A model generated the notes under the pieces. The model saw nothing but the letters and a program-made list of their open reading frames with translations, had not been told where the DNA came from and ran no database searches. 64,000 bases of DNA from Diabrotica undecimpunctata (Eukaryota; Arthropoda; Insecta; Coleoptera; Chrysomelidae), in NCBI RefSeq assembly GCF_040954645.1, contig NC_092803.1:120857961-120921960 (forward strand). The letters are read 5' to 3'. Shown here in pieces: positions 3,507 through 62,189 of the stretch (its first letter is position 1; every line of letters begins with the position of its first letter). The position numbers and the translations under genes were made by a program.

Positions 3507-3682
3507 TAATGAAAATAAAAAAGATTATATCAGGTAGAAGACTTCGTCCTTTAGTCCAAGAATTTATTGCTGATCATCCATTCCTGTTCATTCTTATTCT
3601 CAAAGAGAAGGACGAAAATGGGGACGTATTTATAAATATATTATTCACTGGTAAATTAAGAAGCCCTACAGAAATGTTCTGA
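3507..3682 (+). CDS. serpin cassette exon 1 (Arg-type loop)
   Basis: The acceptor is TTTTTTTACAG. Bases TA complete a split codon (Val if the previous exon ends in G), followed by 57 residues and TGA. The loop is MKIKKIISGRRLRPLVQEF, then IADHPF, a hydrophobic strand, KEKDENGDV and LFTGKLRSP. P1 is Arg with either spacing (R-R-L-R), predicting inhibition of trypsin-like or basic-residue proteases. AATAAA lies at 3689-3694, only 7 bases after the stop. The upstream intron (GCAAGGTTTTGAATAACTC...) is shared with cassettes 2 and 3, so the three arose by tandem duplication. All expected C-terminal serpin motifs are intact. Confidence 0.88.
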
Positions 3683-3694
3683 ATATAAAATAAA

Positions 3695-4163
3695 TGTTAC
3701 CTTATGTGATATGAAGTAGTAGGATGAAATTGTTTAATTTAAATTTTAATAAATGGATACTACCAGTAAGAAATACCAACGACAATCATATAGAAAAAAG
3801 GAAAAGGTAAAACATCTGCAAACATGACTAACTACTGTAGGAAATAGTAGAATTGCAGTGAGAAAAGAACAACTTTCAGATAAAACCAACGTAAATATTT
3901 CTAAACCAGCATCTGGTTGGTTCATTAACTCCGAAGTTAACTATACTTATTCAACACAAACAAGAAGTTTCTAAATTTATAATTACTTTTTTTTTGGTTT
4001 TTCCATTTTGTCGTACGTCAATCTTCATTTTTACTTTAAAAATGAATATAGATCGAATATAGGTATCTGCCACGAGTTATTTCATTATAGCAAAGTTTTG
4101 AATAACCTTTCTGTCACACTTACTTATGGTTACTGTTATGCTTACTTTGGTTGATTTTCACAG
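3695..4163. other. spacer between cassettes 1 and 2
   Basis: No gene. AT-rich intron. The downstream half of the spacer (about 4080-4163) is a diverged copy of the segment upstream of cassettes 1 and 3. A second AATAAA lies near 3749. I see nothing else. Confidence 0.6.
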
Positions 4164-4342
4164 CAATGAAACCGGTAATTATTAAAACTAGATGTAGAGG
4201 ACCTCGTCCTCCAGTTCAAGAATTTATTGCTGATCATCAATTCCTGGTTATTCTTATTCTAAAAGAGAAGGACGAAAATGGGGACGTATCTATAAATATA
4301 TTATTCTATGGTAAATTAAGAAGCCCTACAGAAATTTTCTGA
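4164..4342 (+). CDS. serpin cassette exon 2 (ADHQF variant)
   Basis: The acceptor is TTGATTTTCACAG. CA completes the codon (Ala with G), followed by 58 residues and TGA. The loop is MKPVIIKTRCRGPRPPVQEF, then IADHQF, where the near-invariant Pro of ADHPF is Gln. The rest (KEKDENGDVSINILFYGKLRSPTEIF) is nearly the same as cassette 1. P1 is uncertain: the residue aligned with the cassette 1 Arg is Gly, with Arg just before it. AATAAA lies at 4349-4354. The Pro-to-Gln change may weaken folding, or may be tolerated. The frame and splice site are intact, so I keep it as coding. Confidence 0.82.
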
Positions 4343-4354
4343 ATGTAAAATAAA

Positions 4355-5446: not shown

Positions 5447-5646
5447 TAATGAAAATGAAACTGGCTAAAAAAGCAATTATACGGCCTCATCCTCCAGTCC
5501 AAGAATTTATAGCTGATCATCCATTTCTGGTTATTCTTATTCTCAAAGAGAAGAACGACAATGGGGACATATCTATAAATATATTGTTTAAGGGTAAATT
5601 AAGTAGACCCACATACAATGTTCAGAATGTAGATGAAATTGTTTAA
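5447..5646 (+). CDS. serpin cassette exon 3 (Arg-Pro loop)
   Basis: The acceptor is TTTTTTCACAG. TA completes the codon (Val with G), followed by 65 residues and TAA, the longest open tail of the three related cassettes. The loop is MKMKLAKKAIIRPHPPVQEF, then IADHPF, KEKNDNGDI and LFKGKLSRP, ending YNVQNVDEIV. The aligned P1 is Arg with Pro at P1', which many trypsin-like enzymes cleave poorly. The target may be unusual, or the true P1 may be a nearby Lys. The tail is longer because the stop used by cassettes 1 and 2 is lost. The nearest AATAAA is at 5829-5834. Confidence 0.85.
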
Positions 5647-6145: not shown

Positions 6146-7730
6146 ACTGCGCTAAAAAATTAACGCATAATTTTAAAAACCCTGGCAAATCAAATAATTT
6201 TAATGTCTCGATACCTATATCAAAGAATATTCTTTGCCTATATATTCGATACAATATACCCCCGGTATATTGTAAAATTTATCGAAAGAACGGTAAAAAA
6301 CCCTGATGTTTTTACCAGTTTTTGCAAAAAAATTAAAAACATGCTAATTGTGCTTCATTTTATTTCGAATTTAGTTGGGTTGGATTACGTTGTGCTGAAC
6401 GTTTAAAGGGGTTTTTCAAGTTTATTAAGTGTTTTTTCTTTGAAATGAACCACCAGCAGCAAGAAAATCGAAATTTGTCAGAAAGTGACTGTTTTAGAAT
6501 CGTTACTCTTCGCGAAGAAGGATACACTCGAGTAGAACTCGCTGAACGTTTTAATGTCACCCAGTCAACCATTTCAAGAGTGTTAACACGTTTTTCTGTT
6601 ACTGGAAGTAACTCGAGAAGACCCGGTCAAGGCAGTAGAAGGGTTACAACTCCTAATCAAGACCAGTTTTTGACACTTCGTACACCGAAACAAAGGTTTG
6701 TTACCTGTACTTCTCTATAAAATGAATTTTTGGATCGTTATAACTTTAGAATCAGCCAAAATACGATTAGAAGAAGACTTGCCGAAAACGACATACACCC
6801 TGAAGGACACCAATTGGCCCATTATTGACCAGAGACCATAGAAGGCAAAGATTGCATTTTGCTCGTAAACATGTTGATTGGAATAATGACGATTGGGAAA
6901 GAATATTGTTCACCGATGAATCCAGGTACTGTCTTTTTTCTGATGACAGGAGAAACCGAGTGTATAGAAGGCCTGTGAAAGGCTACGCACAGTGTAACAC
7001 CGTAGGGACTGTACATTATGGCGGCGGCTCAGAAATGGTGTGGGGTGGGATTAATTTAGAGGCTCGTACGGAATTAGTTAGAATAGATTGCGGTCGCCTT
7101 ACATCGCAGAGGTATATAACCGACATTTTAGAAGAGCATGTCGTGCCATTTGCACCATTTATTGGAGATAATTTCATGCTTATTCAAGATCATGCCAGGC
7201 CACACACGGCAAGAATTGTGCAGCAGTATCGTCAGGAGGTTGGAATTCCTGCCATAGATTGCCCTGCCAGAAGTCCTCAACCCAATAGAACATGTTTGGG
7301 ACATCATAGGCAGACGACTACGACAACTCCTAATGCACCAAACACATTAAATGAACTGTTTTTGCGGTTGGTTGAAATTTGGGATCAAATTTATCAAGAA
7401 GAAATCAGAACGATTATTCTCAGTATGAGAGATCGTTGTCAAGCAGTAATAAATGCCAGAGGAGGCAATACTCGATACTAGTACACGGTACTAGTATTTT
7501 ATTCAACTTTAAAAATTTCAATTTCGTCATTAATTTATAATGTTAGTTTGTTTAGATGTTTAGATTTATGATCTTATATTGTTAATTACAATACATTTTT
7601 TGTAAAAAAAGAAAAGTGTTTATTTAAGATGTTCTAGAACAACCATACACCAGAAAAGAACAAACAAAAATTTTTTCATTACAACTCAAAATTAGAATTT
7701 TAAAATTATGCGTTAATTTTTTAGCGCATT
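6146..7730 (+). mobile_element. Tc1/mariner transposon with about 31-bp terminal inverted repeats
   Basis: The left end 6148-6178 (TGCGCTAAAAAATTAACGCA...) is the exact reverse complement of 7698-7728. A few more end bases match with one mismatch. The left flank is TA and the right flank CA, as expected for a TA target duplication with one mutation. It carries a broken transposase (next entry). It sits inside another DNA transposon, and the inverted copy at 10930-11412 shows the empty site (AGTACTTTAAATTTGACAT). Confidence 0.85.
6445..7481 (+). pseudogene. Tc1/mariner transposase, frameshifted
   Basis: 6445-6720 encodes the N-terminal paired helix-turn-helix region (TQSTISRVLTRFSVTGSNS and a GRP-like linker). 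After a stop near 6720 the reading continues through RISQNTIRRRLAENDIHP, then 6825-7481 carries the catalytic domain. The first Asp is in LFTDESRYCLF and the second in LIQDHARPHTA. The third acidic residue of the DDE triad (normally in NPIEHVWD) is lost: a small deletion near 7275 shifts the frame so that it reads NRTCLGHH, and a second indel near 7330 restores frame. The enzyme cannot be active. Confidence 0.85.

Positions 7731-8487: not shown

Positions 8488-9340
<853 letters not shown>

Positions 9341-9409
<69 letters not shown>
9341..9409. repeat. TA microsatellite
   Basis: An uninterrupted TA run that begins right after a CACCCTG terminus. Confidence 0.98.
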
Positions 9410-12055: not shown

Positions 12056-12201
12056 GGAGAATCAGACAGATTGTGCAGCTTGAGAGCTCGTCGTATAGCA
12101 GCACTGTAACCTTATTGTTTAATGGCAAAGTAGAAAGCCCTTCTACCAAGTACGACAAAACTTTCAATTTTGTATTGTATTGTGATCATATTATTCAATA
12201 G
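12056..12201 (+). pseudogene. serpin cassette exon 4, missing the ADHPF core
   Basis: The acceptor is TTTTTCACAATAG. GG completes the codon (Gly with G), followed by 47 residues and TAG. It begins RIRQIVQLESSSYSS, then goes straight to TVTLLFNGKVESPSTKYD. Compared with cassette 5 the whole F-x-ADH-x-F strand and the next hydrophobic strand are deleted, while the frame stays open to a stop and AATAAA follows at 12204-12209. The intron upstream matches the one upstream of cassette 5 (GTTTTGAATAACCCTA.GTCT). A serpin ending like this should not fold as an inhibitor. It could be a dead exon or one that yields a non-inhibitory form. Confidence 0.75.
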
Positions 12202-12441: not shown

Positions 12442-12632
12442 GGAGAATAAAGAAGATGTGCTGCTTGGGAACTCGTCGTATAACGTTTATTGCTGATCAT
12501 GCATTTTTGATTATGTTTGTGATCAAAGGGATGGAAGAAAATGGAGGCGGGGCTGTAAATTCATTGTTTACTGGCAAAGTAGAAAACCCTTCTTCCAATA
12601 TTTGTAGATTTGAAGATTCCGATTTCAATTAA
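12442..12632 (+). CDS. serpin cassette exon 5 (ADHAF variant)
   Basis: The acceptor is TTTTTCCATATTAG. GG completes the codon, followed by 62 residues and TAA. The loop is RIKKMCCLGTRRITF, then IADHAF (Pro to Ala), LIMFVIKGMEENGGGAV, a degenerate NSLFTGKVENP and an acidic tail FEDSDFN. The loop is shorter before ADHAF, so P1 is uncertain (Cys-Leu by spacing, or one of the RR pair). It was missed as an ORF because no ATG starts it, but splice site, phase and frame all agree with the other cassettes. The nearest AATAAA is at 12845-12850. Confidence 0.78.
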
Positions 12633-13545: not shown

Positions 13546-14077
13546 TAGAAATTCACTAAATTTAAATTGTTTATTAAAATATTTTGTTAAGTAATGATTA
13601 ATTGTGAAATTTATTGTTAATTTTATAAAATTGATTCTTTTACACTCATTGGCAGTTTACGGAGCAACAAATAATTCCAGAGAGTTTTATAATCCATCAT
13701 TTTAAAGGTTTGTTGATGAGTAAAAAAAAATAATTTTTAAGCTCTAAAAAAGTACTGGTTATTGTTTATAGCTAAAAGAATCAAAAAGCACACATATTTT
13801 GACGTTTTTTGTTAATAATAAAAAACTTAGATAAAACCAGATTTTAGGGAGCAAAACTATAGGTTTTTTTTGTATATACTTGTAGTCGCTAAATCAATTA
13901 TCGGTTACCGTTATAATTTTTGTCCTAGTGAAGTCTTATATTCCTGGACTAATTTTATCAGCACTCCAGACCTTCCAGTGGGTCCCACTCTACTTAGCGC
14001 TTTTCGTATCGTTACAACTGCATTTCCGATTTTATTTGACTTGTTATAGTCACAATAGAAAAGTACATTATCAAATA

Positions 14078-14874
14078 GCAAAGTTGCTGATAAACATTTT
14101 TTGGCGCGTATTTTTGCTGGCATTCATTCGTAATTGATCGGAATTGAAAAATTGCGAAAACCAGTTTTTCTGAAATATCTTATGATGCTAAAGTATTAGA
14201 ATATCTATATAATGGTAGTTTGACTGCAATGTGGAAATTTCAGTTAACTTCGAAAACTCACTGGAGGCATATTGAAAACAGACACAGTCGTGTCTGTCTG
14301 TTTATATAAAATATAAATAAAATCACAATATTCTCTTCTTATATCACAGTTGAATTGAGATATATCAGCAGCAAATGCATCATGTAAGCGAACATTTTAC
14401 GTAAAAGGATAACTGTGTGTGTTTTAGTGTTAAATAACCAGTTTAGAATAATCCCTACATCGTGTGCTTCTTAAAAATTTACAAAATATTATTTTTCGCA
14501 GCTAAAAAAGCCATTATGAAGAGATGCATGCCTAGAATAAAAGAAGTCATTGCCGATCATCCCTTTTTTATGTGTCTTGCATCGAAAGAAAATGCCGAAA
14601 ATGGAGACACTTCGTTACTATTATTATTTAGCGGAAGAATCGGGCGACCTGTTTAAATAATTTAGAACTTACTAGTAGAGTACGTAAAGTTTTTCTGTAT
14701 TATTGACTGCTTGTATAATTAAAAAAAATGGACAAACGTGTTTGAAGTGAATAAAATAGTTGGGCTATAGTGTCATCTTCCTTAATTTTTATTATCGTCC
14801 ACTTATCGATTAGAATTATAGATTTAGGCGATTGTCTTAGTTGGCAGTGAAAATGTTTGACATGATTTTTCCAG
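14078..14874. repeat. duplication unit A (contains cassette 6)
   Basis: 14078-14520 is near-identical to 14885-15327 (constant offset 807). 14655-14874 is near-identical to 16882-17100. It contains a short internal hairpin, ACAGACACAGTCGTGTCTGTCTGT, near 14277, repeated at the same place in the second copy. Confidence 0.85.
14502..14656 (+). CDS. serpin cassette exon 6 (Arg-Cys loop)
   Basis: The acceptor is TATTTTTCGCAG. CT completes the codon (Ala with G), followed by 50 residues and TAA. The loop is KKAIMKRCMPRIKEV, then IADHPF, FMCLASKENAENGDTS and LFSGRIGRP. P1-P1' is Arg-Cys, predicting a trypsin-like or clip-domain protease target. AATAAA lies at 14750-14755. The 5' intron and first codons are near-identical to cassette 7, while from the P1 codon onward it is near-identical to cassette 8. 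The exon is therefore a mosaic. Confidence 0.9.
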
Positions 14875-15308
14875 CTGAGCAAATGCAAAGTTGCTGATAA
14901 ACATTTTTTGGCGCGTATTTTTGCTGGCATTCATTCGTAATTGATCGGAATTGAAAAATTGCGAAAACCAGCTTTTCTGAAATATCTTATGATGCTAAAG
15001 TATTAGAATATCTATATAATGGTAGTTTGACTGCAATGTGGAAATTTCAGTTAACTTCGAAAACTCACTGGAGGCATATTGAAAACAGACACAGTCGTGT
15101 CTGTCTGTTTATATAAAATATAAATAAAATAGCAATATTCTCTTCTTATATCACAGTTAAATTGAGATATATCAGCAGCAAATGCATCATGTAAGCGAAA
15201 ATTTTACGTAAAAGGATAACTGTGTGTGTTTTAGTGTTAAATAACCAGTTTAGAATAATCCCTACATCGTGTGCTTCTTAAAAATTTACAAAATATTATT
15301 TTTCGCAG

Positions 15309-15463
15309 CTAAAAAAGCCATTATGAAGAAAAGCATGCCTAGATTTAAAGAAGTCATCGCTGATCATCCTTTTTATATGTGTCTGGCATTAAAAGAACAT
15401 GCCGAAAATGGAGACACTTCGTTACAATTATTATTCAATGGAAGAATCGGGCGGCCTGCTTAG
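15309..15463 (+). CDS. serpin cassette exon 7 (Lys-Ser loop)
   Basis: The acceptor is TATTTTTCGCAG. CT completes the codon, followed by 50 residues and TAG. The loop is KKAIMKKSMPRFKEV, then IADHPF, YMCLALKEHAENGDTS and LFNGRIGRPA. P1-P1' is Lys-Ser, against Arg-Cys in cassette 6 and Arg-Arg in cassette 8, on an otherwise conserved scaffold. AATAAA lies at 15564-15569. It sits in the second copy of the 807-bp offset duplication. Its 3' flank is unlike that of cassette 6. Confidence 0.9.
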
Positions 15464-15569
15464 AACTTGAGTAAACCGTGTTAGTTACATATATATGAGA
15501 AAGTATGTATATTTTGTTGGTTCTGAGTTTGTAAAACGTATTTATATTAACACTGCTTGTATAAATAAA

Positions 15570-16030
15570 AAATAAGGATAAACGTGTAGAGTGGATTATA
15601 CAATTGGATCTAGAGTTATAGCTTGAAATCTGTAGTTTCTGGCATCTTTAAAAAAATTTCGAAATACACAATAGATATCATAATATACAAAATATGTTGG
15701 GCATTAGTTAACTTTAATATTAATAAAGTATGTAAACTGTAATTTGTTAAACAAAATTAGAAACTTCGTAGACGTATCTAAGCAAAAAGCCGTAACATAT
15801 GAAATATATAGGCCAGTTCACAACTTTGCATTATAAGTAGTAAATAAAATACCACCACTTGTAGCGACTCCTCGGTTGTTTTGTCCTTTTGTACTTATAA
15901 TTACACGTTAATGAACGGAATATAATCACACTGTCATAAAGAACGGAATATCGAAATACTCGATAAAATTGTTACCCTCAAATTGGACACACCATGGATG
16001 TATGTCTTAGATGAACTATAAACCAAGTTT
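15570..16030. other. intronic sequence, no gene
   Basis: AT-rich, no ORF or known repeat recognised. An inverted GAACGGAATAT pair lies near 15914 and 15941. Confidence 0.5.
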
Positions 16031-16345
16031 GTAGACTCTACGTCCTCTCTATCGGGAGTTATCTTGTAACTTTAGTCTCTAATATTATCCTCATTTTCAT
16101 CATATTTATCATCATAATTCTCTTTGCCGTTATCCCCATGCGGAGTCGGCTTCCCCTATTACATTTCTTTTAAGTTTCTATCTGAGTCATCAATCACCTT
16201 TAGCGACAAGTTCTGCCTAACCATCTCCCCCTGGTCTTCTTTGGTCTTCCACTCCTACTTCTCCTAGGAATCCGCAGATCAGAAATTCTTCGTCTTAGGT
16301 GATTAACGTCTCGACGTTGCACATGCCCAAACCATCGTAACCTAT
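16031..16345 (-). repeat. probable LINE 3'-end relic
   Basis: More GC-rich than its surroundings. The reverse strand gives short pieces such as NLSLKVIDDSDRNLKRNVIG and EADSAWG and a basic segment, broken by stops. The style is that of the tail region of a repeated insect element. I cannot name the family. Confidence 0.3.
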
Positions 16346-16731
16346 GCTCTCTCACTTATTTGTTAAATTTGTTATTTATATTTTCATTCAGGTGTTTATT
16401 CTAATAGATATTCGTATATATTTCTATGTAATTATTGATATACCGTGTTTATTGTAAAAAGGCGCTGACGTGATTTTTTGGATATATTTTAATGTGTGAA
16501 ATGAGATTGATAATGAGTTTGAAAAGTTGAGCTTATTTGCTTTTCTGCAAAATGGTTATTAAGGACACTTAAAGAATTTAAAAATATATGGCTGTCCTCA
16601 TATTACAAGAGTATCAAGTAACAGGATAATTTGTGTTAATGTTAAATAACAGTTACATGCTTAATATTTAACTTAGGATAACACCTATACCGTGTGTGTG
16701 CTGAAATCTCACATCATGTTATGTTTCGCAG

Positions 16732-16883
16732 CTCTAACCATTATGAAGAGACGCATGCCTAGAATAAAAGAAGTCATTGCCGATCATCCCTTTTTTATGT
16801 GTCTTGCATCGAAAGAAAATGCCGAAAATGGAGACACTTCGTTACAATTATTATTTAGCGGAAGAATCGGGCGACCTGTTTAA
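16732..16883 (+). CDS. serpin cassette exon 8 (Arg-Arg loop)
   Basis: The acceptor is ATGTTTCGCAG. CT completes the codon, followed by 49 residues and TAA. The loop is LTIMKRRMPRIKEV, then IADHPF, and from there it is almost identical to cassette 6, ending LFSGRIGRPV. P1-P1' is Arg-Arg. The loop is one residue shorter than in cassettes 6 and 7, through a changed start (LTIM for KKAIM). AATAAA lies at 16976-16981. The 3' flank matches cassette 6 as far as 17100. The 5' flank is only distantly related. Confidence 0.9.
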
Positions 16884-17415
16884 ATAATTTAGAACTTACT
16901 AGTACAGTACGTAAAGTTTTTCTGTTTTATTGACTGCTTTTCTGTTTAAAAAAATGGACAAACGTGTTTCAAGTGAATAAAGTAGTTGGGCTACAGTGTC
17001 ATCTTCCTTAATTTTTATTATCGTCCACTTATCAATTAGAATTATAGATTTAGGTGATTGTCTTAATTGGCAGTGAAAATGTTTGACATGATTTTTCCAG
17101 TTGACGTGACAATACAGAATTGGTCAAGACTGCTTGCATCCATAATTCCTAAGTCTTCTGAATTTATTCGGGATATACTATAGACATAATACAGTTTAGT
17201 CCATAGTTCTTTACCCGTACGGCATTATTTAAAGCATCCGAAATAAGTCGGAAATTTACTCCATGCAACAACAAATGACAGAAAGTGGCTACGATCACGG
17301 ATTATATTATAACATTTGACGTTATCAAAATTTTGGTGCAAAATTACAGCTACGTTTGAAGTAGCTTAATAAATTCTTTCAAACTCAAAAATTTTGAACG
17401 TATGTTTTTCGTTTC

Positions 17416-21994: not shown

Positions 21995-22161
21995 GGGCCG
22001 CGATAAGAATGAAACGATCACTTACGCCTCAAACCAATTTTGTAGCGGATCATCCGTTTATAATACTACTTTGTGTTAAAGACATACAACTGCATCTTTT
22101 ATTTAAAGGAAAAATCTTTCACCCTGTAGATAAATCACATCAAACGCGGGATGAATTGTAA
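21995..22161 (+). CDS. serpin cassette exon 9: furin-type loop RMKR-S with RDEL ER-retention end
   Basis: The acceptor is GTTTGTGTTTTAG. GG completes the codon (Gly with G), followed by 54 residues and TAA. The loop is AAIRMKRSLTPQTNF, then VADHPF, IILLCVKDIQLH, LFKGKIFHP and the tail VDKSHQTRDEL. P4-P1 is Arg-Met-Lys-Arg with Ser at P1', which matches the R-x-[K/R]-R specificity of furin-like proprotein convertases. The last four residues, RDEL, are a KDEL/HDEL-class ER-retention signal. Drosophila Spn42Da has one isoform with exactly this pairing (RRKR loop and HDEL end) that inhibits furin in the secretory pathway. By analogy this exon encodes that isoform. It is missed by ATG-based ORF calling. 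AATAAA lies at 22402-22407. Confidence 0.92.
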
Positions 22162-24094: not shown

Positions 24095-24243
24095 GTGCCG
24101 TAGTGATGATGAGGATGGCCATGGTGTTTTCAGAGCCAGAAGAATTTTTTGCTGATCATCCTTTTATAGTACAACTGGTACATCAAACAAATTATGAGTC
24201 GCATATTTTGTTTAGTGGAAGAATTGCTAAACCAGAGCATTAA
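24095..24243 (+). CDS. serpin cassette exon 10 (Met-rich loop)
   Basis: The acceptor is TTATTCTTATTTAG. GT completes the codon (Gly with G), followed by 48 residues and TAA. The loop is AVVMMRMAMVFSEPEEF, then FADHPF, IVQLVHQTNYESH, ILFSGRIAKPEH. Four Met lie close together at the likely bait site. P1 is probably Met by spacing, with an Arg three residues earlier. A Met P1 suits elastase-, subtilisin- or chymotrypsin-like targets and is sensitive to oxidation. The EEFFADHPF context is like Drosophila Spn42Da isoforms. AATAAA lies at 24377-24382. Confidence 0.9.
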
Positions 24244-30626: not shown

Positions 30627-30778
30627 GTATTGAAATAGAACCTAGATGTCACTTCGAACCCGATGAATTCACAGCAGATCACCCCTTCCTTCTAGCTATA
30701 GTTACTAGAAGCAATCATCAAGGTCAGGGGCTCGATAGTATTTTATTTACGGGAAAAATCGATTTTCCCCTACACTAA
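30627..30778 (+). CDS. serpin cassette exon 11 (Arg-Cys loop)
   Basis: The acceptor is CTCTTTTTACTAACAG. GT completes the codon (Gly with G), followed by 49 residues and TAA. The loop is IEIEPRCHFEPDEF, then TADHPF, LLAIVTRSNHQGQGLDS, ILFTGKIDFPLH. P1-P1' is Arg-Cys by spacing. The hinge-proximal part is acidic (IEIEP), unlike the basic loops of cassettes 1-9. There is no ATG, so ORF callers miss it. AATAAA lies at 30986-30991. Single copy in the window. Confidence 0.9.
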
Positions 30779-36607: not shown

Positions 36608-36747
36608 GAATTATTATGGGTGTGGGCTGCAGTATGCCGAGACCGCCTGAGCTTTTTACTGCCGATCATCCATTTTTGATAATGCTGACAATCAATGATC
36701 CAAATATCATACTATTTAAAGGACGAGTTTCCGCGTCGGTTATCTAA
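36608..36747 (+). CDS. serpin cassette exon 12 (Cys-Ser loop)
   Basis: The acceptor is ATTTTATTTTCAG. GA completes the codon (Glu with G), followed by 45 residues and TAA. The loop is IIMGVGCSMPRPPELF, then TADHPF, LIMLTINDPN, IILFKGRVSASVI. P1-P1' is Cys-Ser by the spacing rule, with no basic residue before the scissile position. A Cys P1 is unusual and could suit a chymotrypsin-like or cysteine protease, or form a disulphide. AATAAA lies at 36755-36760, 8 bases after the stop. It is paralogous to cassette 13 within a duplicated block of several kb. Confidence 0.9.
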
Positions 36748-38568: not shown

Positions 38569-39764
38569 AGTTAAGAGAATGGAAAGAAAATTAGAGACTT
38601 ATCAACCAAGGGAACAGGCAGGATTCCGAAAAAGTTACGGAACAAATGACCATCTACAAAATATAAAAACCCTAATAAAGAAAGCAGTGGAATACAATAA
38701 ACCTCTAGTTCTAATATTTATCGATTTTCACAAAGCCTTTGACACAGTTGAGCTAAGCAAAATATTACAGGCGCTTAAAGAATGCAGGCTAGATTATAGA
38801 TATACTAAATTATTGTACAAAATATACCTGCAGGCAACAACCACTGTCAGATTACATACTAACAGTAATCGCATAAAAATAGAACGGGGGTTAGACAAGG
38901 AGACCTAATGTCACCTAAACTTTTTAATACGGTGCTAGAACATGCTTTTAAGAATTTGGATTGTATGACAAAGGGAATAAAAATAGATGGAGAATATCTA
39001 AACAACTTACGTTTCGCCGATGATATACTTATAATAGCTGAAGATCTAGGTATGGCAAGAGAGATGGTACAGAAGTTCGTTGTGGCTACAGAAAGTGTAG
39101 GTTTAAATATAAATATCTCGAAAACAAAAATCATGACCAATTTGGTACCCAACCAGAACATCAGTATTGCTGGGAAAGAAATAGAACTCGTAGATAGATA
39201 TAAATACCTGGGACATGAAATTATGATTGGCAGGGATAACCAGACTCATGAACTGAAGAGAAGAATCGGCCTTGGGTGGGCAGCATTTGGAAAACTGAGA
39301 GAAACTTTTAAAAGTGAGCTGCCCACATGTCTAAAGAGAAAGGTATTTGATCAGTGCGTCCTCCCAGTCTTGACGTATGGAGCAGAAACACTTACCTTAA
39401 CAAAAGCAGCAGCTACCAAACTGAGAGTCACGCAGAGAAGAATGGAGCGGTCCATGTTAGGAATAACCAATGAAGACATCAGGAGAAGAACCGGAGTGAC
39501 TGACATCATCGAGAAGATAGCCAAACTAAAATGGAGATGGGCAGGACACATAGCCAGAATGACAGATGGGCGATGAACAAAGAGGTTAGTGGAATGGAGG
39601 CCAAGGGAAGACAAGAGAAGCGTCGGTCGACCACCTACAAGATGGACTGACGATTTAAGAAGACTCAATAAAAACTGGATGAGAGCGGCGCAAGATAGAC
39701 GGGGTTGGAAACATGAGGAAAAGGCCTATGTTCAGCAGTGGACTCTTGAGGCTGGATGATGATG
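38569..39764 (+). pseudogene. 5'-truncated RTE-like LINE with target-site duplication
   Basis: 38579-38908 encodes RT fingers and palm (QAGFRKSYGTNDHLQNIKTL, LIFIDFHKAFDTVE). A frame change at about 38890 is followed by 38908-39576 with the catalytic RFADDILIIAED, KYLGHEIM, LPVLTYGAETLTL, RMERSMLGI and KWRWAGHIARMTDGR. TGA at 39574 replaces a Trp codon, and the reading continues TKRLVEWRP...GRPPTRWTDDL. It ends in GATGATGATG. AATAGAGAG occurs on both sides (38560-38568 and 39765-39773), and the duplicate block at 42195-42225 shows the empty site. Confidence 0.88.
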
Positions 39765-40703
39765 AATAGAGAGTGTAAGGGATTTTTCCTAAACTCTGCC
39801 GAGTTAATTCTGTCTCGGGTGATACTTCAAATAAGACTTTGGTATAAAGTTTCTTGAAATCACTAATAACCTGCTTATCCATAAGCTGAGTAATGAGAGT
39901 GGTATTAGGTGAAAGAAAATTTATAGTAATGAAAATGTTAAACTAAGGCAAGACATAATGTTCAAGTTTGATGGATGACCGAGTGCGTTAGGAGAACAGG
40001 CTTAAGAATTAGCTTATTTTCAAAATGAGTTCAACAAAATTAAACAATTTAGCGAAATATTGGCTCTTTAACTCATTAATTAAGTATGTAAGTATGGCTA
40101 TTTGATATCCACATAAAAGGTAGGCTGATATTTCTGGGTTTTATGTTTTTTAAATGCACCCGAGTTTTAAGACGGATACACCAGTAAATAATCATTGTTT
40201 GCATTGTCGGGTAGCATTGCCATAGAAGAATAGAGTTTTTCCGTCGTTGATTGTCTTAACTTCTGTCAATAACTTTTCTCCTTGTGTAAGATCGATCGTT
40301 TTTGGTATTATTTTTTAAAATAAATTAATATTATTATAATTAAAAAAAAATTAGACAATAAAGCTTTTAGTTCTTAAAACTCTCCAGGAAGTTTAACAAA
40401 TTACTATGCACCAACTTTATCGTCACTAGCTCCAGGTCCATGTTACATAAATTACATAAAGTCGTATACTTAGCAAAGTTTGTTTCTAATTGTTCAAATA
40501 GAACGCATTCTAAAACAGACATATACCATGGTATACTCTAACTAAAATAAAATTGGCATTCAAAATTTGCAACAGGTTGCAACATCCTTTGTGTTAAACT
40601 AGTCAAATGGTGATTATAATACGCCTAGAGTCAGATTACATTTTCGAGGTATGCCTTGCATTTTTTGTGGTTATTTTGGAATTCTTATATATTTTATTTT
40701 CAG

Positions 40704-40843
40704 GAATCGTAGTGGGTCTGAGCCGCTGTATGCCGAGACCGCCTGAGGTTTTTACTGCTGATCATCCATTTTTGATTCTGCTAACAATCAATGATCCAAA
40801 TATCATACTGTTTAAAGGACGAGTTTTCGCATCGATTATCTAA
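40704..40843 (+). CDS. serpin cassette exon 13 (Arg-Cys loop)
   Basis: The acceptor is ATTTTATTTTCAG. GA completes the codon (Glu with G), followed by 45 residues and TAA. The loop is IVVGLSRCMPRPPEVF, then TADHPF, LILLTINDPN, IILFKGRVFASII. P1-P1' is Arg-Cys where the paralogue cassette 12 has Cys-Ser. The rest is almost unchanged, so the pair differs mainly in the bait. The proximal AATAAA of cassette 12 is lost here (AAGAGA), and the next is at 41258-41263. Confidence 0.9.
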
Positions 40844-41263
40844 GTGTATTAAGAGATTGTTGAATTGTTCCATTTTTTATGTCGTTTTTCCACATCTATG
40901 TAAGTTTTAGTATGTTAGTTATGTTTAAAAATAGTTGTATGAAGGATAATGAGATAATATAAGCGCATTGCAACCACATCTATTTTTCTTTCAATTTTGT
41001 ATACCAAATTCCCATTTGCTCGTGGACAAATTTTCTTGATTCATATTTTGTATAGGCTGATATTATTACTTTAGTTTTTTATCTATTTTACAGTACTGTG
41101 TCTTATATTCTGTTTCTGCCTTGTTTGGCTTGGAATATTATAAGCGATAAGTTTCGCTAAAACATGTTACCATTATTTATTGACCCTTTCAACAACGCGT
41201 TAACTAATCGTTTTTATTAAATTTGTAACACAAAACAGTTTAAGCAATTCATACAAAATAAAG

Positions 41264-42790
41264 TTAACAATGTTTAACGCTTTAGACCACAGAGTCGAAG
41301 AAACCGTTGTATAGTTTAAGTGCATACATATCATACCATTTTTCAATGTTCCCACTAAAATATTACCGAGATCTTCTCTGTCTATTATCGTTCTCTACTT
41401 CGTTTATTGTGTTGGGAAAATGGATGAAATTTTAATTTTCCACTATGAGAGTCAATGAACAACCCCTTTTTATGGGTTTCCCATCTTTCTAGTTTAAAAT
41501 TTATGTACATGCGAATTTTATAGTGTGACATTTCTCTCTTCGTCAAGCATTCGTCGATCCACTCCTAAATGTAGGTTTCTTCCAATAGCTTTCATCTTTC
41601 TCTGTCTTGAGGCAGTCTATTCCACTAGTGGTTTGCCATTGCTCTCGGTCTCCCTTGGTCTCAATTCTTAGATTCCACTAGGTGTTCACCTGTCATCATC
41701 ATACCGGATCAGCGTCATTTTATTTTTGTTATTTCTTCCAAAATATATCTTATCTTTGTTCTGCGCCCTATCTCAATGTTCATGATCTTCTTTCATAGTT
41801 ATATTCCAAGTATGTTTCGTTCCATTGTTCTTTGCGTTGTTTAAGTTTTTAGAAAATTTCTTGGTGAGACCACGGTCTCCAACCCGTAGGTACAAATTGG
41901 TATTATGCATGTCGTATACACGTTTTTCTTTAAGTTTATAAGAATGGTGGTATTTTTTATAGTTGTCATGGCCGTAGACATCTTGTTCAATATTTTCTAT
42001 GGTATAGTTTTGTGTTGTTATATTTTTCATTTTCCAAATATTTCTGTAATTAATCATGTAGGAACATATTTTATCTCTTTCTCCTCTGAGACCGATGGGA
42101 CCCCATCTGTTCATCGTTCTTAATTTCCGCTTGTGATCACAAATTTTTCCAACGCAGCTCATCATTCTGTGGAAAAATTCCTGTCAAGCTTTGTCAATGA
42201 GCGATAGAGAGTGTAAGCGATTTTTCCTAAACTCTGCATAGTTAATTCTGTCTCGAACGTTACTTCAAATAAGACTTTAAGTCTAAAGTTTCTTGAAATC
42301 ACCAAGGACCTGCTGATCCATAAGATGAGTAATCAGGCAAGACACAATCTTTAAGTTTGATGCATGAGCGAGTGCGTTAGAAGAACAGGCTTAAGAGTTT
42401 GCATATTTTCAAAACAAGTTCAAGAAAATTAAACAATTTAATGAAACATTGGTTCTTTGCCCAATTAATTTAATATTTAAGTCTGGCTATTTGATCACCA
42501 CATAAAAGATAGCTAATATTTCCGTATTTTAAGTATTTTAAATGTCTCCGAGTTTTAAGAGTGATAGCTCAGTAAAGAATCATTTTTTGAAATTTCCGGT
42601 AGCATTGCCACAGAAGAAAAGAGTTAGTCCGTCGTTCATTGACTTAAATGCTGCCAATAACTTTTCTTCTTGTGTAGCATTGAACCTATTTGGTATTTTC
42701 TTTTAAAATAGATCAATATTATAATTAAAAAAAAAATAGACAATAAAGTGCTTAGTTCTTAAAACTTTACAGGATGTTTAAGAAATTGCT
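41264..42790. repeat. 3' part of the second duplicated block (LINE relic, empty target site)
   Basis: Diverged copy of 36900-38560 joined to 39770-39990. Shared landmarks are GGTCTCCAACCCGTAGGTAC (37790 and 41877), CGCTTGTGATCACAAATTTT (38487 and 42127) and GCTTTGTCAATGAGC.ATAGAG (38546 and 42187). It lacks the LINE found at 38569-39764. The ORFs at 41773-42165 are not genes. Confidence 0.75.
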
Positions 42791-43018
42791 ATGCAACTTT
42801 ATCGTCACTAGCTCCTAGCCCATGTTATATAAATTAAGTCGTATGCAAAGCCAAATTTGTTTCTAATTGTTCAAATAGAACGCATTATAAAACAGACATA
42901 TACCGTGGTATGCTCTACCTAAAATAAATTGACATTCAAAACTTGCAGTAGATTGCAACATATTTCGTGTTAAACCAGTCAAATGCCTTGCATTTTTGTG
43001 GTTTTTTTGGTAGTTTTC
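42791..43018 (+). pseudogene. third duplicate unit, cassette lost
   Basis: It repeats the upstream flank of cassettes 12 and 13 (CGTCACTAGCTCCTAGCCCATG, AATAGAACGCATT, CAGACATATACCGTGGTATGCTC, GTGTTAAACCAGTCAAATG, ATGCCTTGCATTTTTGTGGT). It then breaks at about 43018 into CTTCTTCTTCTTAATC, just before where the acceptor and exon should be. No RCL exon follows. Confidence 0.8.
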
Positions 43019-44040: not shown

Positions 44041-44192
44041 GTTTGATGATGTGTAACCAATGCCTCGTAATAAATCCTTTTAAATTCGAAGTTATTGCGG
44101 ATCATCCCTTTATAATTATAATCCAACGTCAAACAGGATACGAAAACACTTTTCTCTTTAAAGGGCGTGTTCTAGAACCACTCGAATCTTAA
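44041..44192 (+). CDS. serpin cassette exon 14 (Cys/Leu/Val loop)
   Basis: The acceptor is ATTTTTTATTCCAG. GT completes the codon (Gly with G), followed by 49 residues and TAA. The loop is LMMCNQCLVINPFKFEV, then IADHPF, IIIIQRQTGYENT, FLFKGRVLEPLES. There is no basic residue before INP, so the bait is hydrophobic or Cys (C-L-V-I), pointing to a chymotrypsin-, elastase- or cathepsin-like target. Paralogous to cassette 15. I see no clear AATAAA close downstream, unlike most of the others. Confidence 0.9.
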
Positions 44193-46115: not shown

Positions 46116-46267
46116 ATATATCGATACGCCACCAGTGCCTCTTAATAAATCCTCTTAAATTTGAGGTTATTGCCGACCACCCCTTTATAATTATAATCCA
46201 AGGGCAAATTGGATACAACAAACTTGTTTTCTTTAAAGGGCGTATTCAAGAGCCACTAAACTCTTAA
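46116..46267 (+). CDS. serpin cassette exon 15 (Cys/Leu loop)
   Basis: The acceptor is CCATTTTTATTCCAG. AT completes the codon (Asp with G), followed by 49 residues and TAA. The loop is ISIRHQCLLINPLKFEV, then IADHPF, IIIIQGQIGYNKL, VFFKGRIQEPLNS. It lacks an ATG and was therefore invisible to ORF calling. It differs from cassette 14 chiefly in the first residues (ISIRH for LMMCN) and in Leu for Val near the bait. The likely P1 is Leu or Cys. AATAAA lies at 46379-46384. Confidence 0.9.
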
Positions 46268-53061: not shown

Positions 53062-53216
53062 ATACAATAAATAGAAAACGACAGTGCGAATCGTGGAACT
53101 ACGAAGATTTTCAAATAGATCATCCGTTCGTTATTATCATAAAGTATATAATAAATGAAATGTACGATATTATATTGTTTAAATGTCCTGTAAAAGCATT
53201 AAATCCTATATTTTGA
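53062..53216 (+). CDS. serpin cassette exon 16 (divergent; IDHPF and LF-K-C)
   Basis: The acceptor is TATGTTAATTTTAG. AT completes the codon (Asp with G), followed by 50 residues and TGA. The loop is TINRKRQCESWNYEDF, then QIDHPF, VIIIKYIINEMYD, IILFKCPVKALNPIF. Two near-invariant positions differ: Ala of ADHPF is Ile, and Gly of LF-x-G-[KR] is Cys (K-C-P-V). The loop holds an N-R-K-R run, but by spacing P1 would be Cys or Gln just after it. No ATG. AATAAA lies at 53403-53408. The open frame and correct splice phase support function, and the divergence suggests relaxed or altered constraint. Confidence 0.8.
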
Positions 53217-55915: not shown

Positions 55916-58900
55916 TAGTGACGGCTCGTGGTAATTTAAAAAAGGTGTTCAATTAAAGAATGAAATTACAGAAACAGTAAATAAGCTCCGCATGCAATTA
56001 CGGCACAGGCGAAAAATGTTTGGGGGCCTCGCCCCTTTTTGTATAAATTTGATATTATTTATTACTGTTGTTCCTATATAAATAAAACATAAAATAAATA
56101 TAAGATAAGTTTTATTGTCGTATGCAATACATTAAATCAATACGACTTAAAAACAAAATTTAATTAAAAATAATATAAAAATGTCTGGGTGTTTTTGTGT
56201 TCAATTTATTTAGTTTATTTATTTTATTTATACAAAAAATCCATTCTTCGATTTTTGGCTTTTGCAAAATCATCGATAACACGAGCATTAAAGTCTGTAA
56301 TTCTGGAAATCAACTCTTTGGTTCTATCGGTCAGGTTTATATCGATAAGAAGTAAGATTGCCAACGCACTTCCCGCATGATGAAAATATTGTCTGTCATA
56401 AATAACACACAATTCACTTTTAAGTTTTTCTTTCTAAAAAAAGTTATAGATTATAACGGTATCAAAATCATCGATACGAAACTCTTTATATTCGTTGAAG
56501 TTTCCAGGAAAAAAAGTTTTGAAGCCAAAAGATGTGATATAAATAAACAATAAGTGAAAGTTACATTATTTAAATATCCCAGCAACGCATCTGCTTAATT
56601 TATTGTGGTAAAATTATTTCGGCTGCTCTCTAATATTCTCTCTAGACAATTTTTTAGAAGCTCTTTGTTTTCAAAAATTTTTCTGATAGTTCGTCTGATA
56701 AAATTCCATCTTGTTGCTGGTGCTGTCGGAATCCTTTTTTCACTAGCCCGCCAGAGAAACTCTGGCGGGCTAGTTCTTTTTGCTGATCTTGAAAAAAAAA
56801 GTCTGCAATATTAAATTAAATTGATGTATAAAAATGTACATCAAATTCATAAGGAACATATTTTCTTATAATACTTTCTTTGAACGCTACCTTTCCTTCT
56901 TGACATTACAGCCGCTCTATCATAGCTTTGACCTACTAGCTACACGCACCCTTAAAAATATTAAAAGACATCAAAGAATCCCTACAATAGACACAAGAAA
57001 ACTTAAAGAACCTAAAGTAAAAGAATGCCTCCAACATGAACTGCATGTGAACTGCAACAAATTGAACACAAACACCAATGATATTGACGAGTACTGGAAT
57101 CGACTAAAAGATTGTCTACTGGAACCCTGTAAAGAAATACTAAAGACTTCCTCAAGGAGAAAAAAGGAATGGATAAATGACGAGATACTCAATATGATGG
57201 AACAACGGAGACAATTTAAAAACAAGGATAACAATAAATACAGAGAGATAAACCACGAGATTAGAAAGACGATAAAGCAGGCAAAAGAAAAATACTTTGA
57301 AGAGCAATGCAAAAAGATCGAAGACCTTCAAAATAAATATGATCTGTTTAACCTACACAGAAAGTCAAAGAACTGGCAGGACTAAGAAAACAAAATCCCA
57401 CTTGTGCAATTCTGGATAGACACGGTACTGCTATAACACATACGGACGAGAAAATACAAAGATGGGCAGAATATAATCGATGAATTGTTCGATGATGAAA
57501 GAGGAGATCTGGAGCACATAGAACTTACGTCAGAAGAAATAGGTCCATATATTACAAAAGAAGAAATATTGCACGCATTAAAAACAATGAAGAGCGGGAA
57601 AAGCCCTGGACCTGATATGCTTCCTATAGAAATCCTAAAAATTTAAATGAGAAGCACATTGATGTTTTAGTGACACTCTTGAACCAAATTTATAGTTCAG
57701 GCGTATTACCCAAAGAGTGGTTAACATCTATTTTTATTTGTCTCCCTAAAAAGAAAAACGCAAGAGAATGCAGCGATTACCGCACCATTAGCTTAATGTC
57801 TCATACGCTAAAGTTACTACTTAAAGTCATCCATAACCGAATATATCACAAACTGGACATAGACGTTAATAATACACAATTTGGTTTTCGCAAAGGCCTA
57901 GGAACACGTGAAGCTCTTTTTTCACTTAATATACTAATACAAAGATGCCTGGACGTCAATCAAGATATATACGCATGTTTTACTGACTATAATAAAGCAT
58001 TCGATAAAGTACGACATAAACATTTAATGAATGTCCTGAAATCAAAGAAGATTGACTACAACGACCTCAGGATCATATCAAATTTATACTATAAACAGCG
58101 AGCAAAAGTACGTGTTAACGAACAGCTGTCAGAAGAAATTGAAATTAGATGTGGAGTAAGACAGGGATGCGTATTGTCGCCAATTCTTTTCAATGCCTAC
58201 TCCGAAGAGGTCCTGAAAAAAGCTTTTGAGGGTGAAACAGCTGGAATAAAGGTAAATGGAGTTCCCATTAACAACATTAGATATGCGGACGACACTGTGA
58301 TCTTAGCCGAAAACATTGAAGATCTTCAGAGACTGGTGACCAGAATAGCAGAGTATGGAAAAGAGTATGGTCTAACAATGAATGTCAAGAAGACGAAATT
58401 TATGAGAATATCGAAAACTCAAAGAAATAACGAGAATCTTCTAATAAACGAAACCAACGTCAAACAACTGGACAAATATGCATACCTGGGAACAATGATT
58501 AACTCCACAAATGATTACAATCAGGAGATACAAATAAGAATAGAAAAGGCTAGAGCAAATTTCAACAAAATGAGAAGAGTTCTATGTACCAGGGATTTAA
58601 AACTGGAACTAAGAGTTAGGTTGGCGAGGTGCTATGTTTTTTCGACTTTATTTTATGGAATGGAATCTTGGACCTTGAATGCGACATCAATGAAAAAACT
58701 GGAATCATTTGAGCTGTAGTGTACAGAAGAATTCTGAAAATATCATGGACAGAACACGTCACAAACAAAGAGGTTCTGGGAAGGATGAACAAAGAAATGG
58801 AAATTTTAAATTCAATAAAAACAAGAAAATTAGAATATCTCGGACACATTACACGTGGAGAGAAATACACCTTGCTCCAACTGATTATGCAGGGAAAGAT

Positions 58901-60600
58901 CCAAGGAAAGAGAAGCATAGGGAGGCGTAGAATGTCATGGCTGCGCAACCTGAGAGAGTGGTACGGATGTACATCAAATGAACTTTTCAGAGCAGCCGTC
59001 TCAAAAGTCCGAATAGCTATGATGATTGCCGACCTCCGCCGCGGAGATGGCACTTGAAGAAGAAGACTAGCTAATTTACGGAAATATTAAGCAGTTCCTA
59101 TTTTTTTTTAACTTCTGTCTCTATGTTACTGGCACTATGTGAAACAGCTTCTAAAAACTTCCAAAAAAGTTCGTAAAGGTCATTCCGCTCATATCTTGAA
59201 ATAATAACACGTTGCTGATGTGTAGAAACATCAGTGGTTTCATCACACTGAATAGATACAAACCGTGCATCTGAAATCTGTTTTTTAATCTCTTCCTGAC
59301 GAACAGTTACAATAGCATCTAATATGTCATTTAGTGAATGATGATTTGATAATGAACTGATTTTGATGTAACTTTAAAAACATTATTTCCCTGTAAATTT
59401 TGTTTCATAGACATATCGATTTCTGGTACAAAATCAATGAGGCCCCTTTATATTCCTGGATTCAAGCTTTCTGGTGACTCGAAATGTCACCGCAAAGATA
59501 TTTTGAATACGCCACAAAATTTCACACAATCGATAAGACGGGACAAAATGTAACGATTTTTTTTAACTTCGTCGTTAAAGTCTTTTTTTGATTTTCGATA
59601 GCCAGAATTAAATAATTGGCGAACATCAATATTGCCAACATCCGAGAGTTGCAATTCATTTTTTAAATGAATTTGGTTTTGACCGAAAGTCATGTTTTTT
59701 AATTTTTGTTGATAAGTGAGATCAATCCCGAACACCCGTTTTTGTCCACTCTGAAGAACTAGTTTCGTTCATGGAAAACACTAAATGTTTATTATAAAAC
59801 TTAAGAGGTCGCTGGTTAAATGATATTAGATAAATAATAATGAAGAAAAAATGCAATATTTTGTTTGTAAATAAATTAGCGAAAAATAGCAGATACAACT
59901 GTGAATAAATTACGAAATTAACTAGCCATACTCATTATTTTTGTCTGTACAAAGAACATAGACTTACCCTTTGAAATATTGAAGTCGTATTCTTAGCCAG
60001 TGGAATCTCGTTGGTACCACGTCGGGACGCCCGGGAACGCCGAGGCTCGATGGCACGAGAGCCAAAAAACTCAGTGCGTTTCGTTCGCTGTCTTGGGATG
60101 AAGTGTAAGTGTCGTCTTCCGTCTTGAGATCGTCAGAAACTACCCTCTGTCCACGGTTCGAGGTGGTCGGTAGCAAGAGGGTATACCCATAAATCACTCT
60201 ATTGTATTGCGATTTTGAGTGGCGATAATTTAAGTTAATTGTTACCGTAATACGAAATAGTACACTTGTGTGTATTGGCGACACAAAAATAATAAAAGAA
60301 GTCAAATTCTCCGTACTTAAAACATAATAAATGAGATAGCCAGTTTAACAATTTTACGAAATAACAGGAAGCAATATATTTTAACAAAGTCGTTAGAGTA
60401 CAGCATTGAATTAGATCACATTATAGGACACTAAAAGAAAAATATTAAATGTAAAAATATGAAAAGAAATAGTACATACTTTCCCAAACACTAAACATGG
60501 AAAACAAAACAAAAAATGTAGTTTAGCACAATCACGAAGTTTTTCTATATTGTTCAAGTTTAAAACAACGTTTAAATTTTTTGTTTCGTATGACACATTC
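55916..60600 (-). pseudogene. hAT-type (ZMYM1-like) transposase relic, split by a LINE
   Basis: On the reverse strand the order is: TTF-type zinc-finger remnant LHFLFCFPCLVFGK (about 60515-60470); 59735-59487 with VKKNRYILSRLIDCVKFCGV; 59480-59100 with ARFVSIQCDETTDVSTHQQ-type catalytic sequence (first Asp); then, beyond the LINE, APATRWNFIRRTIRKIFENK (about 56725-56660) and 56412-56224 with DRTKELISRITDFNARVIDD. A TAGTGACGGCTCGTGG end at 55916-55931 resembles the CAGTGGCGGCTCGTGG ends of hAT elements. Several frame breaks. 59964-60305 between the blocks is more GC-rich and may be another insertion. Confidence 0.7.
56942..59065 (+). pseudogene. 5'-truncated LINE inserted in the hAT relic
   Basis: 56942-57385 is the linker before RT (RRKKEWINDEILNMMEQRRQ, TIKQAKEKYFEEQCKKIEDL). 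57386-57669 continues in other frames (LKTMKSGKSPGPDMLPIEIL). 57670-58719 is the RT: LPKKKNARECSDYRTISLMS, FGFRKGLGTREALFSL, ACFTDYNKAFDKVRHKHLMN, RCGVRQGCVLSPILFNAYSE, IRYADDTVILAENIEDLQRL. After a frame change, 58719-59057 holds LEYLGHITRGEKYTLLQLIM, RMSWLRNLREWYGCTSNELF and VRIAMMIADLRRG. It ends GAAGAAGA. ACTAGCT flanks both sides (56935-56941 and 59066-59072). The YADD site is intact, but at least two frameshifts disable it. Confidence 0.9.
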
Positions 60601-61019
60601 TTGTACCAAGTTTATCTTCGGCCGAGGTGGTCCATTCTTTTTTATAAGAAGTCGATCTTCAAAACTATTTGCGTTTTCTTTTATAAACTCCACTGAATAA
60701 GGCTCTATCTTGAAACTACTAATATTGTATTTAAGATTTAACTAAATGCCACAACAGAAAATACCAAACTGTGAATCGAAACGCTCCGGTATCTTTGTTC
60801 AATGCACAAATCCTCACCGTTTAAAATAGGCGAATCAATGGTCTCATGGATTATTAGGTCTCTCTTTCTAACTACAGGGTTACTGTCTACTGTCTGGGGT
60901 CAATTTGAATTCCGTACTGTGTACGTGCATCCAGCGGCGTAAAGCAAATACATATGATTAATAAATAAAGTTATATTTTAATGATACTATGATATTTATG
61001 AGATTTAAAAAAAAACTGT

Positions 61020-61370
61020 ATTTTAATGAAATTTTATTTGTATTTTATTTGATCTATAACAATGTACATAAAATGCATAAGAAACATATTTTCTCATAAT
61101 ACTTTCTTTGAACGCTACCTTTCCTTCCTGACATTACAGCCGCTCTATCATAGCTTTGACCTACTAGCTGATTTACGGAAATATTAAGTAGTTCCAATTT
61201 TTTTTTTAATTTCTGTGGCTATGTCACTGGCATTATTTGAAACAGGTTCTAAAAACTTTCAAAAAAGTTCGTAAAGGCCATTCCGCTCATATCTTAAAAT
61301 AATAAGTTGCTGATGGGTAGAAACATCAGTGGTTTCATCCCACTGAATAGATACAAACCGTGCAACCATG
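61020..61370 (-). pseudogene. second hAT-relic fragment showing the LINE's empty site
   Basis: Closely matches 56830-56941 joined to 59066-59275 (CTTTGAACGCTACCTTTCCTTC, CATTACAGCCGCTCTATCAT, CTACTAGCTGATTTACGGAA, AAAAAAGTTCGTAAAGGCCAT). Reverse reading includes ARFVSIQWDETTDVSTHQQ. The LINE at 56942 is absent here. Confidence 0.8.
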
Positions 61371-62031
61371 AAATTGTATTGGGTGTTCACTGAACAACTA
61401 AACCAATGGAGAGCTAAATGCCGTATGGCAACTCTCTCTTGGTTGTTTTTCATATCCAATAATGTGGGAAACTGTTTGTTCTTTCCAATTAGATCAGATC
61501 CGATTTAAAAAAAATCCAGTCAGAAAAAGACTAAAATTTTACCTATATCATATATAAATTTCCTTAGCTCTCCTAAAAAATTCCTTTTTTTACTTATTGA
61601 TCACTCTTTAAAGTGGCATATTGTTTACAAAGTTGAATTCACATAACATTTTAAAACCCGATAGTCAAAATTAATGTATTAAATGGACATATAAAAGGCA
61701 TACAATATTTAAATTTAGAAAGATATTTACTTTCAAGTTTATAAAAAAAATGTATCCTTTAATTATAAAAGTATCGATGACGTCTAATTTTGTAAAATAA
61801 TGGAAGAAAATTGGTTGGAATAAAAATTAGAAACAGTGAAATATATCCGAACTTTACCTCCGAAAATAACTGGATAATAGAACACTTATACCTACGTTTT
61901 GCACGTACTGTGGCTGAATAATGACGAATCCTTATTTGCATGATTCTGTACCTTTTAGTTTCCAATTTCAGTGTGACTGTTTGATTTACCATTTTGTAAA
62001 AAAATCTAATGTTAATTTTTTTTTCTCGTAG
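61371..62031. other. intronic sequence before cassette 17
   Basis: No gene. The 113-residue reverse ORF at 61759-62100 overlaps cassette 17 on the other strand and is a shadow. Confidence 0.5.
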
Positions 62032-62189
62032 GTCATATAATTCGTCGTAAATATGCAGCCTGGAAGGCCCAGGACGATGAATTCGTGGCAGACCATCCAT
62101 TTATCGTAATGTTTAAACTAAAAGCGGAAGATCAATTCATCATTGTATTTTTTGTTCGTGTTTTTCACCCCTTACTTCCTCTCATATAA
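62032..62189 (+). CDS. serpin cassette exon 17 (divergent; FF-V-R)
   Basis: The acceptor is TTTTTTTTTCTCGTAG, with the strongest pyrimidine tract of the set. GT completes the codon (Gly with G), followed by 51 residues and TAA. The loop is HIIRRKYAAWKAQDDEF, then VADHPF, IVMFKLKAEDQFI, IVFFVRVFHPLLPLI. The conserved Gly of F-x-G-R-V is Val. P1 by spacing is Ala (A-W), while the R-R-K run lies three to five residues before it. No ATG. AATAAA lies at 62200-62205, 11 bases after the stop. It is the last cassette in the window. More may follow to the right. Confidence 0.85.

Follow-up and report, generated by a model that had tools for sequence, protein, structure and literature searches.

A window of 64,000 nucleotides (nt) from Diabrotica undecimpunctata (NC_092803.1 of assembly GCF_040954645.1, positions 120,857,961-120,921,960, forward strand) was analysed in this study. 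It harbours an array of short exons, here called cassettes, which resemble the alternative reactive-loop exons of insect serpin genes. Seventeen cassettes were located over 58.7 kb (3507-62189), all on the plus strand. Each starts at a YAG acceptor (11 CAG and 6 TAG), and the frame is open from acceptor to stop for 45-65 codons in all 17, with a common phase in which two bases complete a codon. This confirmed the initial annotation of the stretch, in which 17 acceptors of one phase had been placed on one strand. The common protein plan that it had proposed (reactive centre loop, ADHPF, LF-x-G-[KR], stop) was found exactly in 11 of the 17 cassettes and not in the other six; a D-H-x-F block is present in 16. 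The lack of an ATG in some cassettes, to which it had also drawn attention, is expected for a downstream coding exon and has no significance by itself.

A family profile was built from 16 cassettes, with cassette 4 excluded as its core is absent. Each of the 16 was matched by this profile at E values of 8.4e-22 to 4.6e-18, and leave-one-out profiles still matched every one of them (E 2.4e-19 to 2.3e-5), while the best score among 10 shuffles of the window (first-order Markov) was E 0.0081. The leave-one-out values are partly aided by close tandem relatives; for the cassettes without a close relative in the window they were 2.7e-12 (cassette 9), 2.7e-14 (cassette 10), 3.8e-10 (cassette 11), 2.3e-5 (cassette 16) and 3.4e-9 (cassette 17). 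The 16-row profile matched the C-terminus of solved serpins, with 46 distinct sequences at E <= 0.1 and a best value of 2.8e-7. Eight of 10 cassettes submitted to Pfam matched the Serpin family, all at positions 332-370 of the 370-position model, and all eight matches were weak and below the curated cut-off (E 6.9e-6 to 0.14). When the six frames of the window were searched with the 16-row profile, no 18th cassette was found above the inclusion threshold. Sixteen of the 17 cassettes are thus members of one serpin C-terminal family. Cassette 4 reached a profile E of 0.0067, barely better than the best shuffle, and was assigned to the array because of its DNA homology to cassette 5 (81% over 166 nt plus 87% over 46 nt), so that the earlier count of 17 serpin cassettes stands at the protein level for 16, with cassette 4 as a deleted copy. 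In the structure of Spn42Da, two clusters, H-P-F and F-x-G, are crucial for fitting the variable exon to the scaffold (PMC4006314). By this rule both clusters are intact in 12 of the 17 cassettes (1, 3 and 6-15). The cassettes are as follows.

Cassette 1, 3507..3682, plus strand: both conserved clusters; tandem relative of 2 and 3
Cassette 2, 4164..4342, plus strand: DHQF replaces DHPF
Cassette 3, 5447..5646, plus strand: both conserved clusters
Cassette 4, 12056..12201, plus strand: pseudo-cassette, a copy of cassette 5 without the ADHPF part (64-column gap)
Cassette 5, 12442..12632, plus strand: DHAF replaces DHPF
Cassette 6, 14502..14656, plus strand: mosaic of cassettes 7 and 8
Cassette 7, 15309..15463, plus strand: profile match; group 6-7-8
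Cassette 8, 16732..16883, plus strand: profile match; group 6-7-8
Cassette 9, 21995..22161, plus strand: R-M-K-R at residues 4-7, C-terminal RDEL; predicted convertase-inhibitor isoform
Cassette 10, 24095..24243, plus strand: best solved match Drosophila serpin 4 isoform B (4p0f), E 3.1e-4
Cassette 11, 30627..30778, plus strand: R-C in the loop; weak grouping with a Dendroctonus protein and four unnamed database proteins
Cassette 12, 36608..36747, plus strand: tandem partner of 13
Cassette 13, 40704..40843, plus strand: 1605 columns of its unit align with that of cassette 12 at 78% identity
Cassette 14, 44041..44192, plus strand: tandem partner of 15
Cassette 15, 46116..46267, plus strand: tandem partner of 14
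Cassette 16, 53062..53216, plus strand: Gly of F-x-G lost (FKC), long branch; possibly decaying
Cassette 17, 62032..62189, plus strand: Gly of F-x-G lost (FFV), long branch; possibly decaying

Proposed scaffold, splicing and 3' ends

Six-frame translations of the window, with X in place of stops, revealed no serpin body when compared with Pfam Serpin at E <= 0.01; this agrees with the earlier statement that none lies between the cassettes, although the scan is blunt (2 of the 17 cassettes detected) and a short body exon could be missed. Its only Serpin matches were cassettes 10 (model positions 331-370) and 12 (333-368). The longer exons of a usual serpin body (>300 residues) should be expected to appear in such a scan. 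Because the cassettes form one family beyond the shuffles, share strand and phase, and have no body detected between them, the array very probably represents the 3' part of a single insect serpin gene of the Spn42Da / serpin-1 type, in which an upstream scaffold would be spliced to one of N C-terminal exons. An array that serves two or more scaffolds, or cassettes of which some are the 3' ends of separate genes with bodies outside the window, would fit the lack of a visible scaffold and the gaps of up to 8.8 kb with their transposon remains. We regard this as highly improbable: no body was detected between the cassettes on either strand in the blunt Pfam scan, phase and strand are common to all 17, and the duplicated units of 0.2-1.6 kb are short of whole genes.

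For a single gene with one scaffold, the phase of the cassettes is informative. Alternatively spliced insect serpin genes are spliced one base past the hinge in 161 of 192, and in PpSerpin-1 the base at that splice is G (PMC10513286). Several loop-encoding exons on a single strand, in a phase that suits a splice one base past the hinge, mark the insect alternative-loop serpins, and this arrangement was found here. As the cassettes leave two bases for the hinge codon, in the published phase, the scaffold is likely to be spliced to one cassette at a time. The constant scaffold, ending in the hinge, would lie left of the window, and its final donor, predicted to read G|GT and to fall one base past the hinge, would be joined to one of 17 or more cassettes. 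The remainder of the reactive loop would come from the cassette, as would the C-terminal strands, the stop codon and, probably, a separate polyadenylation signal, and each choice would present a different protease bait on the same inhibitor body. The locus had initially been called combinatorial; this was not upheld, as a single slot that takes one of N exons allows only N isoforms. The codons formed at the junction with a donor G (V, A, G and D) were also considered as evidence for the donor, and were set aside, since any GNN codon encodes V, A, D, E or G.

An AATAAA signal was found within 250 nt past the stop in 15 of the 17 cassettes, against 42% of plus-strand places (P 1.1e-4). With a single cassette counted per family, the signal was present in 9 of 10 (P 0.0025). 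Within the same 250 nt, no donor-like site occurs at a fixed place past the stops of all 17 cassettes, and the best site was equalled by at least a quarter of random stretches in 15 of them, the exceptions being cassettes 11 (7%) and 2 (13%). Given the AATAAA excess and the absence of any fixed donor-like site, each cassette is more likely to be a terminal exon with a 3' end of its own than to precede a common last exon; this part of the model is the weaker one. The cassettes could also be internal, mutually exclusive exons before a shared last exon, a variant that is compatible with the single-gene reading. In Cydia, the ninth of the ten exons of CpSPN1 is the only one in which the forms of this gene differ (PMC10671500). 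Here the same donor-like site is kept after the stop within pair 12-13 (+65 and +57) and within pair 14-15 (+92 and +99), and a fair one lies at +2 in cassette 11. Pair 12-13, however, shares most of its 3' flank anyway, and the absence of such a site at one place in all 17, together with the AATAAA excess, makes a shared last exon rather unlikely. No motif common to the surroundings of the cassettes, such as a docking or selector sequence, was detected beyond shuffles among 9- and 10-mers with at least three G/C (400 nt 5' and 300 nt 3' of 10 family representatives).

Growth and possible decay of the array

Self-comparison of the window placed many of the cassettes in tandem groups: 1-2-3 (74-80% identity), 4-5 (81%), 6-7-8 (82-96%), 12-13 (78% over 1605 columns) and 14-15 (75%). 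The units of cassettes 6 and 7 adjoin at 14878/14880, within 14072-17104. Around cassettes 12 and 13, and also in the interval that separates them, there are several repeat copies with about 78-81% likeness (36216-42985), which may have aided the duplication of that unit.

Cassette 6 was compared with cassettes 7 and 8 over gap-free columns only (the rest of the exon gives 54 columns when gaps are counted, and 16 without). In the 70 bases 5' of the exon, 23 columns agree with cassette 7 against 8 and none the reverse, and in the first 12 exon bases two columns agree with 7 and none with 8, to which a three-base gap in cassette 8 adds. After about base 12 the pattern is inverted, with 16 columns up to the stop that agree with cassette 8 against 7 and none the reverse. 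In the 225 bases 3' of the stop, 77 columns agree with 8 and 8 with 7, which is barely alignable there. Cassette 6 is therefore a clear mosaic of 7 and 8 with a breakpoint within the loop-coding part, and the derived copy may be 6 or one of the other two.

Substitutions were pooled, as rounded counts, from four separate pairs (1-2, 6-7, 12-13 and 14-15). Pairs 1-3, 2-3, 6-8 and 7-8 were computed and left out of the pool as non-independent, and pair 4-5 was not included. Non-synonymous differences per site were more frequent in the loop than in the tail (0.190 versus 0.088; Fisher P 0.003), with similar synonymous differences in the two parts (0.265 versus 0.242; P 0.82), and loop non-synonymous divergence exceeded that of the tail in all eight computed pairs. 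In the tail, non-synonymous change was below synonymous change (P 1.5e-4); the tails are therefore kept as protein, and the loops are freed or favoured to change. Tandem duplication, with recombination or conversion between cassettes, very probably accounts for the growth of the array, with a loop that diverges faster than the structural tail.

Part of the array is damaged. The first cluster of cassette 4 is missing as a whole, in one 64-column gap relative to cassette 5; the Pro is changed in cassettes 2 and 5, and the Gly of the second cluster is lost in 16 and 17. Much of the array might thus consist of decaying relics, with some cassettes in use and the rest pseudo-exons left by duplication, which would be a variant of the single-gene reading and not its opposite. 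The loss of the core in cassette 4 and of one conserved residue in each of 2, 5, 16 and 17, and the long branches of 5, 16 and 17, would agree with this. As all 17 frames are open from acceptor to stop over their 45-65 codons, and as non-synonymous change lies below synonymous change in the tails of the four duplicate pairs, we consider extensive decay doubtful, though worth reckoning with. Cassette counts based on open reading frames (ORFs) exceed the usable repertoire.

The gaps between cassettes (0.2-8.8 kb) contain transposon remains, including a Tc1-like element, reverse transcriptases and a DDE match on the minus strand. Remains of the Tc1-like transposase lie between cassettes 3 and 4 (6337-7481; helix-turn-helix, with HTH_Tnp_Tc3_2 below its cut-off). 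Two reverse transcriptase ORFs with RVT_1 matches lie among the cassettes, at 57616-58719 and 38558-39576, which we take to be non-LTR-type (long terminal repeat) retrotransposons. The ORF at 57616 had 782 database matches; the named ones among the 120 listed are from insects, namely Diaphorina (55-58%), Cyamophila (56%), Pararge (52%), and Lasius and Pieris (50%), and the closest among those listed reached 82% over 63%. Rfam and tRNA scans of the window gave no matches.

Predicted reactive sites and related serpin systems

The variable region of Spn42Da begins with G335, and the RRKR motif (P4-P1) ends at the scissile P1 residue R342 (PMC4006314). By this rule P1 is predicted as the seventh full residue of a cassette, as a guide only because loop lengths vary (the D of DH is preceded by 16 to 22 residues in the 16 cassettes that have this block). 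As such a guide, the rule predicts Arg, Lys, Ile, Met, Cys, Gln or Tyr as the P1 residues of the cassettes. In cassette 9, residues 4-7 read R-M-K-R, at the same place as the RRKR of Spn42Da, with S next, and RDEL stands directly before the stop. Drosophila Spn4A combines RRKR with HDEL and inhibits constitutive convertases (PMC4147316), and KDEL, HEEL and SDEL signals occur in others (PMC2556349). With RMKR at the P4-P1 place and a C-terminal RDEL, cassette 9 is predicted to yield an inhibitor of furin-type proprotein convertases retained in the endoplasmic reticulum (ER), and would in this way add an address to the bait. Used as the sole query, cassette 9 gave no database candidate.

Several points weigh against the interpretation developed so far, or against parts of it. 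The homology is based on 45-65 residues per cassette, and neither a scaffold exon nor a hinge was found in the window. The acceptors are moderately pyrimidine-rich (mean 0.67 versus 0.50 for all AGs), and five of the 17 are equalled in this by at least one third of all AGs. Lesions are present in five cassettes (2, 4, 5, 16 and 17). The AATAAA excess depends on the distance and on the signal: at 60 nt it was seen in 5 of 17 cassettes (P 0.04, or 0.14 with ATTAAA added), at 120 nt in 9 of 17 (P 0.006, or 0.05 with ATTAAA added), and at 250 nt it was weaker with ATTAAA added (P 0.004). In the loop, non-synonymous and synonymous change did not differ (P 0.35), so that relaxed constraint accounts for the loop divergence as well as positive selection does, and the latter is unproven. 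The rate comparison covers eight cassettes with about 26 and 29 non-synonymous differences, and its pair 6-7 includes the mosaic, which affects loop and tail unequally. For cassette 9, all matches to solved serpins were weak (E >= 0.1); HSP47, an ER serpin, is among them, and its solved chains also carry RDEL. A serpin with an ER signal need not be an inhibitor, and cassette 9 may have a non-inhibitory role in the ER.

A search with the cassette alignment gave 21 proteins at E <= 0.01 among 569 candidates. The best relative was a Dendroctonus ponderosae prediction, HUJ04_002468, of 84 residues with two loop cassettes head to tail in one reading; this protein most probably reflects faulty annotation of a comparable array in that bark beetle. 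In a tree of 16 cassettes and the 21 database proteins, little was resolved, with good support for 4 of the 34 inner branches. Cassette 11 grouped weakly (80/89) with the Dendroctonus protein, four unnamed proteins and the long-branched cassette 16, and it has R-C in its loop in common with the database proteins of its group.

Of the known systems, PpSerpin-1 of Pteromalus puparum has C-terminal alternative exons of 44-50 residues, against 45-65 here, a splice one base past the hinge, an alternative part that evolves faster than the constant part, and exon expansion (PMC10513286). It differs in its 21 forms, all 21 confirmed by RT-PCR (reverse transcription PCR), against 17 cassettes here (12 with both clusters), and in that its scaffold, its expression and some of its targets are known (PMC10513286); the comparison drawn here is with its published features. 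The same holds for serpin-1 of Manduca sexta, in which one scaffold is combined with any of a large number of mutually exclusive loop exons (exon 9 occurs in 14 copies; PMC5691223), as proposed for this locus, where 17 are spread over 58.7 kb with transposon remains. Other published sets are smaller, with four loop exons in Spn42Da (PMC4006314), four in Bombyx (PMC5691223, PMC10671500) and six in Cydia (PMC10671500). The initial placing of the array at the large end therefore holds against Manduca, with PpSerpin-1 the larger at 21 forms.

Spn42Da (Spn4) shares with this array a variable part directly past the hinge and the H-P-F and F-x-G clusters (PMC4006314). In both, one cassette combines R-x-K-R at P4-P1 with a KDEL-like signal at the C-terminus (PMC4006314, PMC4147316). 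Unlike the fly gene with its four loop exons, the array has the convertase loop and ER signal on cassette 9 and the fly-like tail on cassette 10. That cassette 10, rather than 9, is closest to the fly isoform of the Protein Data Bank (4p0f) fits an exchange of parts between cassettes, or convergence. In the lancelet Branchiostoma, Spn-1 has M-K-R before S and a KDEL signal, comparable with R-M-K-R before S and RDEL in cassette 9; the available text of that paper does not mention alternative cassettes, and it holds the relation to the arthropod forms to be unproven (PMC2556349).

Cassettes 6-9 have basic residues at the predicted P2 and P1. With further cassettes left of the window, the locus could be the largest known exon array on a single serpin scaffold, in which new specificities arise by recombination inside the loop exon, as in cassette 6, and in which cassettes 6-9 form a convertase-directed sub-array; this bolder version is unlikely. 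With this locus, a large array joins the insect serpin genes that are believed to derive many inhibitors from a single scaffold, and two testable points go beyond the counting of exons: a predicted ER-retained convertase-inhibitor cassette and a mosaic with its breakpoint inside a reactive-loop exon. The array is a large new example of a well-described insect serpin type, and the gene itself, or a larger array, may be reported outside the open-licence papers.

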